NCBI RefSeq assembly: GCF_023369855.1
Contig: NZ_JAMBPP010000012.1
Coordinates: 62,001-126,000 of the forward strand
Source of the DNA: Actinotalea alkalitolerans
GTDB lineage: Bacteria > Actinomycetota > Actinomycetes > Actinomycetales > Cellulomonadaceae
DNA length: 64,000 bases
Reading direction: 5' to 3'
The position numbers and the translations under genes are program-made. Under the pieces are notes generated by a model. The model did no database searches. It saw nothing but the letters and a program-made list of their open reading frames with translations, and was not told the origin of the DNA. Positions 61,762-64,000 of this stretch are shown here, piece after piece. The stretch's first letter is position 1. Every line of letters starts with the position of its first letter.

Positions 61762-63213
61762 ATGGCAACCAAGCAGCGCAAGAACACCGACGAGTCGTCG
61801 TCGCGGAGCACCAAGGACGTCTCCGGCGTCCAGGGGTTCGACCGCGCCGATGCTCTGTACCCACCGCACACCGACCTCTTCACGTTCACCGCCAAGGTGA
61901 TGGAAGGGCCCGGGCCCGAGTACGCCATGATCCTCGAGAGCATCTGCGGTGTCGCCGATGACTCCCAGCCCGTCGAGCAGTACGACGGCACGCTCGGCGT
62001 CACGGTCGCGTTCGTGGCCGCGCACCAGCGCCAGGCCGCGCAGGTCCAGTGGAACGCCGGACTGGGTGCCACCTACACCAACCCGGGCAACGTCAGCGGT
62101 GTCCGGTGGGGCAGCGGCACGATGATCAGCCGCGACCTGTTCCTCACCTGCGGCCACCTGTTCGACCAGAACCCGAACGGCTGGACGGTCCCCCGGCAGA
62201 ACGGCACTGCCACCGCGATCAGCCCGGCGGAGATCGCGACGAACATGCGGGTGAACTTCCTGTACCAGGTGGACCCCTCGGGCACGCTGCGGGCAGAGGA
62301 GAGCTACCCGATCACCCAGCTCGTGGAGTACCGGCTCGGGGGCCTCGACATGGCCATCTGCCGGCTGGGGGGCAACCCGGGCGACGTCCACGGCTGGACC
62401 GAGGTCTCGGCCGCCAACGCCGCCGTCGGGGACATGATCTGCATCATCGGGCACCCGGCCGGCATGCCCAAGCGCCTCGAGGCCGGGCCCGCGACGACCG
62501 TCACGACGAACCGGATCACGTACGACGACATCGACACCCTGGGCGGCAACTCCGGCTCCGGGATCCTGCAGGCCTCCACGGGGCGCATCGTCGGCGTCCA
62601 CACGAACGGCGGGTGCACCAGCACCGGCGGTGCCAACTCGGGTGTGGCGATCGCGGGCATCCTCGCGGTGTCCCCGACGCTCCAGGCCCTCCCGGCAGGG
62701 TCGAGCACGGGTCGTGCTGCGGACGGCATCACCACCCGGTTCGCCGACGACCTCCGTGCCACCATCCGCGCGGCCGACACCATCTCCCTGCGCGACCGCA
62801 TCGGCACCCCGCTGGCTGCGGACATCGGCACGATCCACGCCGCGGACACCGCGCGGGTCCTCGACCGGCCCGGGACGCCGCTGGGCGCCGACACCCATCA
62901 CGTCCTCGACAACCTCGGGACGTCGATCGCCGGCGACATCGGCACGTTCGGCGTCGGTGACGATCCCGACCTCACACGCGTCGAGACGGCGTTCGACCCC
63001 GGCTCGTTCGTGGACCCGCGGGTGTTCCCGCAGGGTGGGCGGCCCTTCGTCCAGGCCGGTCCGTCTCAGGTCGTCGCGCGCGAGGAGGTCGGCGCCGAGG
63101 GCTCGGACGTGCTCGCGGGTCTCGAGCACGCGATCCTGGCCCAGCGCGCCGCGTTGGAAGCTCTCGAGGCGACGTACGAGTCGCTCGCGGCGCAGCTGGA
63201 GGGCGGGTGGTGA
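61762..63213 (+). CDS. Trypsin-like serine protease with Thr/Asp-repeat tail, putative graspetide precursor
   Basis: The 483-residue protein has no signal peptide or membrane segment; it opens MATKQRKNTDESSSRSTKD. Residues ~75-305 are a trypsin-like protease with triad His132 (LTCGHLFD), Asp196 (GGLDMAICRL) and Ser264 (GGNSGSGIL). Residues 338-392 hold three 17-residue repeats: ADTISLRDRIGTPLAAD, ADTARVLDRPGTPLGAD and ADTHHVLDNLGTSIAGD. Each has T-x4-D-x3-T-x4-D. A helical tail follows (LAGLEHAILAQRAALEALEA). The next gene, 39 bases on, is an ATP-grasp peptide ligase. I infer that Thr and Asp side chains of the repeats are cross-linked by that enzyme. ATG 61762; ribosome site weak (GAAGGATGCCGCC). 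Confidence 0.75.
   Translation: MATKQRKNTDESSSRSTKDVSGVQGFDRADALYPPHTDLFTFTAKVMEGPGPEYAMILESICGVADDSQPVEQYDGTLGVTVAFVAAHQRQAAQVQWNAGLGATYTNPGNVSGVRWGSGTMISRDLFLTCGHLFDQNPNGWTVPRQNGTATAISPAEIATNMRVNFLYQVDPSGTLRAEESYPITQLVEYRLGGLDMAICRLGGNPGDVHGWTEVSAANAAVGDMICIIGHPAGMPKRLEAGPATTVTTNRITYDDIDTLGGNSGSGILQASTGRIVGVHTNGGCTSTGGANSGVAIAGILAVSPTLQALPAGSSTGRAADGITTRFADDLRATIRAADTISLRDRIGTPLAADIGTIHAADTARVLDRPGTPLGADTHHVLDNLGTSIAGDIGTFGVGDDPDLTRVETAFDPGSFVDPRVFPQGGRPFVQAGPSQVVAREEVGAEGSDVLAGLEHAILAQRAALEALEATYESLAAQLEGGW
62773..62937 (+). repeat. Three-unit Thr/Asp peptide repeat (putative core)
   Basis: Encodes residues 338-354, 361-377 and 376-392 of the protease. Thr sits at 340, 363, 378 and 349, 372, 387; Asp at 345, 368, 383 and 354, 377, 392. 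Spacing is identical in all units, and units 2 and 3 share residues Ala376-Asp377. A degenerate unit may precede at 320-339. DNA identity between units is modest, so selection on residue pattern rather than recent duplication explains it. Confidence 0.85.
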
Positions 63214-63252: not shown

Positions 63253-64000
63253 GTGATCGGCATCGTGTCCCACGTCGAGGACCTTCACACCCAGCAGGTC
63301 ACCCGGCACCTCGACGCCGCCGGCTCGCCCTGGGCCATGGTCGACACCTCGCGCTTCCCCACGGCTGTGAGCCTGACGACCGTGCAGGGCGCCGACGGGT
63401 GGCGCGGGGTGTGGGCGGACGGCGGCGTGGCCTGGGACGCGGCGGACGTGCACGCCATGTGGTGGCGCCGTCCGCAGCCCTTCCAGCTCCACGCGGACCT
63501 GCGGACCGGCGACGACCGGCTGTTCGCGCACGGGGAGTGCGCCGCGGCCGTCGCCGGCCTGTGGGCGTGCATGGGAGCGACGTGGGTCAACGACCCCGAC
63601 CGGGACGAGGCCGCGTCACGGAAGATGTGGCAGCTGCAGGTCGCCACCCGGGTCGGCCTGCGCGTCCCGAGGACGTGCATGACCAACGACCCGGAGCGAG
63701 CACGGGCCTTCGTGGCGGCGGAGCGGTCCGGCGCCGTCTACAAGTCCTTCAGCGCGACGCCGAGCACGTGGCGCGAGACGCGGCCGGTAGGGGCAGCGGA
63801 CCTCGAGCTCATCGACGCCGTCCGGTACGCCCCCGTCATCTTCCAGGAGCTCGTGCCCGGTGGCATGGACCTGCGCGTGACGATCGTCGGGGAGGAGGTC
63901 TTCGCGGCCGAGATCCGCAGCGGTGAGTCGGCCTACCCCTACGACTTCCGCGTGGACACCGCCCACGCACCGACCTCGGTGTACGAGCTCCCGGACGCCG
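63253..64000 (+). CDS. MvdD-like ATP-grasp peptide ligase (3'-truncated)
   Basis: The frame from GTG 63253 stays open to the window end, giving 249 residues of a protein normally ~320 long. The N-terminal domain ends with VHAMWWRRPQPF (70-77), the W-x-R-R-P motif of graspetide maturases. ATP-grasp elements follow: NDPDRDEAASRKMWQLQVA, VYKSFSATPSTWRETRPV and VIFQELVPGGMDLRVTIVGE. Such enzymes activate Asp/Glu side chains with ATP and join them to Thr/Ser (esters) or Lys (amides) of a precursor peptide. The protease gene ends 39 bases upstream. GGGGCGG precedes the start. Confidence 0.87.
   Translation, partial: MIGIVSHVEDLHTQQVTRHLDAAGSPWAMVDTSRFPTAVSLTTVQGADGWRGVWADGGVAWDAADVHAMWWRRPQPFQLHADLRTGDDRLFAHGECAAAVAGLWACMGATWVNDPDRDEAASRKMWQLQVATRVGLRVPRTCMTNDPERARAFVAAERSGAVYKSFSATPSTWRETRPVGAADLELIDAVRYAPVIFQELVPGGMDLRVTIVGEEVFAAEIRSGESAYPYDFRVDTAHAPTSVYELPDA

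Follow-up and report, generated by a model that had tools for sequence, protein, structure and literature searches.

Graspetides are known as small secreted peptides which are cut from short precursors. Plesiocin is made from a small precursor of this kind, in which each hairpin unit, of the form TTxxxxEE, holds two nested rings between Thr and Glu. The core motif of the chryseoviridins, TxxxxDxxxTxKxPSDxD[DE], contains the spacing T-x4-D-x3-T (Makarova et al., 2022), and the rings of corallotide are KxxxD isopeptides (PMC13097080). The fuscimiditide synthetase ThfB cyclises whole proteins (PMC12291112), and the fuscimiditide leader, of which RPFG is the key tetrapeptide, still functions when it is moved C-terminal to the core (PMC13003496). 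Two ATP-grasp branches, numbered 7 and 8, were found beside peptidases of several unrelated families, with a YscW homologue in branch 7 and a truncated partner ATP-grasp in branch 8, and precursors were not found for them (Makarova et al., 2022).

In this work we analyzed a stretch of 64,000 nucleotides from Actinotalea alkalitolerans (the window; contig NZ_JAMBPP010000012.1, positions 62,001 to 126,000 of the forward strand), at the end of which a trypsin-type protease gene is followed by an ATP-grasp gene. The pair appears to work like a graspetide system.

Results

A trypsin-type protease with a C-terminal T-x4-D tail

The forward-strand ORF at 61762-63213 encodes a putative precursor of 483 aa composed of a trypsin-fold serine protease, a tail of T-x4-D repeats, an RPFV motif, and a C-terminal helix. 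Residues 117-279 match Pfam PF13365 (Trypsin_2; E=9e-14), and the catalytic motifs lie between 62146 and 62562, with the His in TCGHLF (62146-62163), the Asp in GLDMAI (62341-62358), and the Ser in GNSGSG (62545-62562), all three residues being invariant among nine aligned relatives. Pfam, the alignment, AlphaFold2, and Foldseek agree on an S1 fold with a His-Asp-Ser triad, and the protease is apparently active in the system. The best Foldseek matches are the glutamyl endopeptidases Esp and B. intermedius GEP, phmmer likewise ranks glutamyl endopeptidases first, and His280, in the segment GVHTNG (62593-62610; invariant in relatives), aligns with the VGVH segment of glutamyl endopeptidase 1p3c; for these reasons cleavage after acidic residues is plausible. 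No obvious signal peptide was seen by eye at the start of the ORF. Among the PADLOC defence models the protease domain gave only a weak match to RT-Protease_XI (E=6e-5) and the ATP-grasp gave none, so that the pair does not qualify as a known anti-phage defence system, and no viral relatives were found.

In the AlphaFold2 model, which was built on a shallow alignment of nine sequences, the trypsin-type domain has block pLDDT values of mostly 60-89 and residues 301-440 are unstructured, with block values of 23-30. A helix is predicted at residues 447-481 (63100-63204; block pLDDT about 50-72), and the C-terminal regions of the relatives are alike. C-terminal to the core lies RPFVQAGP (63040-63063), an instance of a conserved P-F-[VIA] motif which is also found in the S1, M12A, and M43 precursors described below and which is a putative synthetase recognition site. 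It resembles both the RPFG tetrapeptide of fuscimiditide and the leader motif Phhx(1,2)h; motifs of this type were found as RPFV, PFVMATPHH, and PFVLSTPHH, but C-terminal to the core.

The putative core (62707-62961) is predicted to be unstructured and contains 12 T-x4-D matches, corresponding to 11 non-overlapping hexads (TGRAAD, TTRFAD/TRFADD, TIRAAD, TISLRD, TPLAAD, TIHAAD, TARVLD, TPLGAD, THHVLD, TSIAGD, and TFGVGD). A sequence-only reading of this DNA had described three T-x4-D-x3-T-x4-D blocks, and these are indeed present, all in frame in the ORF at 61762-63213: TISLRD RIG TPLAAD (62779-62823), TARVLD RPG TPLGAD (62848-62892), and THHVLD NLG TSIAGD (62893-62937). The Ala-Asp that it reported as common to units 2 and 3 is likewise seen in the translation. 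As a description of the repeat, however, three 14-residue units proved too narrow and had to be abandoned, since hexads also occur outside that pattern, some of them beyond the coordinates first given (62773-62937) and one, TIHAAD, between units 1 and 2. Composition-preserving shuffles of the tail gave a mean of 1.4 T-x4-D matches and none of 2000 reached 12; when spacings from k=0 to k=11 were scanned only k=4 stood out (12 observed, 2.0 expected, z=8.0), and the gap between hexads varied, being 0, 2, 3 or more residues. Taken together, the whole-tail scan, the shuffles, and the k=4 result show that the tail repeats a single T-x4-D hexad, with loose gaps between the copies. The ceiling of six esters, two per unit, proposed earlier accordingly rises to about eleven putative esters. 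The comparison with plesiocin made in the same reading holds in so far as a Thr/Asp core of graspetide type lies next to a graspetide synthetase, but its two-ring hairpin unit does not: TTxxxxEE two-ring repeats were not found, the spacing gives no support to plesiocin-type units, and since the unit is a single T-x4-D with Asp a chain of one-ring units fits better.

Conservation and co-occurrence among trypsin-type relatives

Trypsin-type relatives with an adjoining ATP-grasp come from the genus and family of the window genome, from Marivita and other alphaproteobacteria, and from one Cytophagales genome (locus L004). The tail was present in 18 of 18 (with Lys for Thr in one), with 8 to 15 [T/K]-x4-[D/E] pairs each and 5 in L004, and k=4 was the best spacing in 17 of these 18 tails. 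Homologous proteases without a neighbouring ATP-grasp carried no tail (0 of about 25, z at most 2.0); this set comprised Paenibacillus, Agarilytica, Geminocystis, Sinorhizobium, and some twenty Rhodobacteraceae copies, and no related ATP-grasp was found in the Paenibacillus genome.

Two expectations had been attached to the repeat, namely that Thr and Asp would be the most conserved columns and that repeat number would vary between species. The first was borne out in the Marivita set, where 25/26 Thr/Asp positions are invariant as against 45/84 other core positions (permutation 0/5000), and in the set from a genus of the same family (20/20 against 51/72; permutation 9/5000), and the second by the pair counts given above. 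In the Marivita tails the gap is mostly 3, giving a period of mostly nine (T-x4-D-x3). Substitution of the Thr or Asp beside a retained ATP-grasp was also looked for and was seen for one of the two residues, in L004, where Thr is replaced by Lys with the same spacing (KLKFRD, KIKAFD, KFKAFD) while the Asp and the ATP-grasp are kept. As Lys is the other standard graspetide donor, giving an amide, this exchange supports graspetide chemistry.

The conservation pattern also bears on whether the tail is just an ordinary structural or linker repeat, a low-complexity expansion or a solenoid unconnected with the ATP-grasp. Short repeats do expand readily, the composition of the tail is biased, and the C-terminus of some relatives bears a different module, e.g., FG-GAP repeats. 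We nevertheless regard this explanation as very improbable, as Thr and Asp are kept while their neighbours vary, the tail is found only with the ATP-grasp, the spacing recurs on unrelated proteases and with Lys in place of Thr, and AlphaFold2 predicts no fold. A solenoid or other folded repeat was set aside on the tail pLDDT of 23-30, a weak argument given the alignment of only nine sequences.

The genes flanking the protease/ATP-grasp pair differ among the S1 loci inspected. Beyond the window end (L003:4294-6899) there are an HbpS-like haem-degrading protein and an ABC transporter; neither was seen at any other S1 locus inspected. In Marivita (L005:331-4845 and L009:253-4761) the pair comes after a haem-peroxidase-like gene and a gene for an 850-aa lipase-like protein with, by eye, a trypsin-like domain of its own. 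The same trypsin domain, with a conserved DGTLGV segment, is present in plasmids or genomes without the ATP-grasp (L088, L089, L091, and L015), where it is joined to FG-GAP repeats, to a murein endopeptidase or to propeller-like repeats, or lies beside S8 peptidases. A single 698-aa ORF composed of protease, T-x4-D tail, RPFV, and ATP-grasp was seen in L013/L070/L139:4761-6854. It may be a fusion, a pseudogene, or an assembly artefact, and it was not counted as evidence of a natural fusion because the genome is a draft and the N-terminus of the protease and the first strand of the ATP-grasp are missing.

The adjoining ATP-grasp gene

The ATP-grasp gene begins 39 nt 3' of the protease ORF and is cut by the end of the window (63253-63999, forward strand); the full gene (348 aa) lies at L003:3254-4300, on the same contig. 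The truncated protein matches TIGR04187 (ATP-grasp ribosomal peptide maturase) with E=3e-50, below the curated cut-off of 350 bits, and contains the MvdD pre-ATP-grasp domain PF21068 above cut-off. It has the MvdC/MvdD-type domain with an intact E-x-N site in the motif FLEVNPAG. Solved synthetases are matched throughout, i.e., MdnC (5ig9, E=1e-43), CdnC (7mgv, E=2e-29), and PsnB (7drm, E=3e-25), as well as MdnB and AMdnB; homology is thus to the macrocyclases, the match to RimK being far weaker. By domain content and homology the downstream ATP-grasp is a graspetide-type synthetase of the MvdC/MvdD type.

It is conceivable that such an enzyme performs another chemistry on the tail, for example by appending amino acids to acidic side chains in the manner of RimK or by forming intermolecular cross-links. 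RimK has a related fold, and the graspetide synthetase ThfB can link two chains (PMC12291112). We consider this improbable, since the enzyme is much nearer to the macrocyclases (E=1e-43 to MdnC) than to RimK and the fixed spacing of donor and acceptor suits intramolecular rings.

The same tail on astacin, M43, and M6 proteases

ATP-grasps 41-50% identical to that of the window directly follow proteases unrelated to it. At eight loci the carrier is an astacin (M12A; PF01400, E=2e-48 for L075), and on a replicon of Burkholderia stagnalis it is a pappalysin-like protease of family M43 (PF05572, E=8e-16). The M43 tail contains the hexads TLASTD, TIPTVD, TIATAD, TIAWTD, TLATAD, TLSTLD, and TLKFID (k=4, z=7.0). 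Lys predominates in the astacin tails, paired with Asp or Glu. Their spacing is less regular: k=4 scores highest in four of the eight tails and is raised in the other four (z 1.8 to 4.2), where the best-scoring spacings are k=2, 3, 10, and 0 (L072, L077, L074, and L107, respectively). The astacin tails are rich in Lys and Glu and might be charged helices. An M6 peptidase (PF05547, E=8e-25), whose tail is of the Lys/acid type, precedes more distant ATP-grasps, and a second ATP-grasp-like gene is present there. Judged by these matches the tail module is carried by at least three unrelated protease families (S1, M12A, and M43), and probably also by M6. The P-F-[VIA] motif follows the tail in all S1 carriers, in seven of the eight M12A carriers (in the astacin L107 it is weak or missing), and in the M43 carrier, and is itself followed by a C-terminal region of about 50-85 residues. 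Protease and ATP-grasp lie on the same strand with a gap of -4 to 126 nt (26 loci).

Some further genes were seen at these loci. In L075, 3' of the ATP-grasp at about 2400-2800, there is a YscW-like protein of 112 aa (PF09619, E=0.004, below the Pfam cut-off) and then a membrane-protein gene, the like of which is also present in L074, L076, and L077. In the genus of the window genome (L148:4884-6356) two ATP-grasp-like genes are immediately followed by one for a 491-aa protein which has a long KEKEKE/KEDKED tail and may be a further carrier of the hydrolase type with a Lys/acid tail.

The main rival to our explanation concerns the acidic residues. If the GluC-like protease cut at Glu flanking a nearly Glu-free core it would free a multi-ring peptide, and the system would be a self-processing graspetide. 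The closest solved relatives are glutamyl endopeptidases, as described above, and the S1-type tails have 12-23 Asp (10 in L004) and only 1-2 Glu, the single Glu of the window tail standing just after the core. Against this, the astacin, M43, and M6 carriers, which have no Glu specificity, bear similar tails, the astacin tails are mostly Glu-rich, and there is neither a dedicated exporter nor a conserved third gene beside the S1 systems; on balance self-processing is unlikely, though less so than the other alternatives considered here. By count the S1 and M43 tails contain 1-2 Glu and most astacin tails 7-19. The low Glu content of the former may reflect an avoidance of self-cleavage by a Glu-specific protease.

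ATP-grasp phylogeny and the search for a separate precursor

A tree of 69 ATP-grasps placed the neighbours of tail-bearing S1, M12A, and M43 proteases in one group of 24 rows (support 90/77, which is moderate; the fork is drawn open), with small-precursor systems outside it. The sole exception within the group, L129 (L146:5379-6866), is an orphan ATP-grasp which is nested in the clade of the astacin tails, has no adjoining protease, and has a degenerate metal-binding motif (DLDPSG). On the evidence of this tree the tail module travels with its own synthetase clade.

A conserved small precursor ORF was not found across eight loci, the only seven matches being between two genomes of one genus, and the idea of a separate small precursor gene was rejected on this basis. 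Conserved Thr/Ser/Lys donors and Asp/Glu acceptors are present in the core as in graspetides, but the core is part of a 483-aa protease and the motif is 3' of the core. Owing to this lack of a short dedicated precursor with an N-terminal leader the system is not filed as an ordinary graspetide.

These observations bear also on the idea that the protease is a maturation enzyme for a precursor encoded elsewhere, with the tail merely docking the protease to the ATP-grasp. A similar proposal, that the peptidases of branches 7 and 8 supply peptides cut from other proteins, has been made (Makarova et al., 2022), and C39 peptidases have such a role in other graspetide systems. Given that the donor-acceptor pattern and the leader-like motif sit on the tail itself, that no conserved small ORF is nearby, and that invariant Thr/Asp pairs in many copies are unnecessary for docking, we hold it to be decidedly improbable.

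Discussion

We favor, and think probable, a graspetide-type system of two genes: the protease itself would act as precursor, its tail would be ring-linked by a synthetase recruited through RPFV, and the modification would serve in control or protection of the protease. The RPFV motif after the tail would recruit the ATP-grasp synthetase, which would activate the Asp side chain of each hexad; this would then be joined to the Thr hydroxyl five residues upstream in an omega-ester, or in an omega-amide where Lys replaces Thr, and the unstructured tail would be turned into small rings in series, up to about 11 of them. By analogy with graspetides we infer that the ATP-grasp cross-links the tail, and the fixed spacing argues for pairing of i with i+5, non-adjacent, cross-repeat pairings being possible. 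The position of RPFV, its conservation across protease families, and the published work on fuscimiditide point to this motif as the site of synthetase recognition. The likeliest role would be to control or protect the attached protease, e.g., as a built-in inhibitor or as a tail resistant to self-digestion. This function is the weakest step of the explanation, and we favor it because what the carriers share is that they are proteases and because every graspetide characterised by 2022 was a protease inhibitor (PMC8939145). It is quite possible, if a little less than probable, that the principle is wider, i.e., that whole active proteases of at least three unrelated families are naturally stapled at their tails by a dedicated synthetase clade using a guide motif after the core, with the tail retained as a covalent regulator or protector in a modification of enzymes rather than a secreted small-molecule pathway, and that they are the missing substrates of the protease-associated branches. 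The tail module and its synthetase could serve as a natural tool to staple the end of a chosen protein.

Graspetide cores on proteases were not described in the literature searched; an earlier mention in Ramesh 2021, Iyer 2009, or Lee 2020 is possible. With the microviridins and chryseoviridins (MdnB, MdnC, and CdnC; MvdC/MvdD family) the system shares the closest solved synthetases, but theirs are small precursors with an N-terminal PFFARFL leader, whereas here a protease bears the core at its end, with the motif C-terminal to it, and a TxKxPSDxD cage is absent. Plesiocin (group 2; PsnB, 7drm) is similar in having repeated units of Thr and acid and a homologous synthetase, and differs from the single T-x4-D hexads with Asp of the window system. 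Corallotide (group 15; CorA/CorB) is the nearest in ring logic: its precursor is unusually large and repeats a single donor-acceptor pair, with one ring per repeat (PMC13097080), but its spacing is K-x3-D, its partners are a 2OG oxygenase and a beta-lactamase, and no protease domain has been reported, in contrast to the T-x4-D or K-x4-D found here on proteases. Fuscimiditide (ThfA/ThfB) is alike in the key recognition tetrapeptide RPFG. Its native leader is N-terminal and the C-terminal one was engineered, whereas the order of core then motif in the window system appears natural, and a PIMT gene was not seen beside the pair. Elsewhere in the literature searched this order was met only in an engineered form. 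In the window system a whole protease appears to be the precursor, with a C-terminal core and the recognition motif after it.

Group 9 of Carter et al., in which over half of the clusters have a serine proteinase, is unlikely to be the same system because its cores belong to a cluster of small precursors that have a leader in common (Makarova et al., 2022). The presence of a YscW-like gene at astacin loci (PF09619, E=0.004) and of two ATP-grasp-like genes at the M6 locus, which match the neighbour genes of branches 7 and 8, suggests that the tail-protease loci are these two branches of Makarova et al. (2022). The difference is that the peptidases of the latter were proposed to cut peptides from other proteins, while here the peptidases carry the putative cores. 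The published survey left both protease-associated branches without precursors and the tails offer a concrete candidate, being probably the missing precursors of these two branches flanked by unrelated peptidases.
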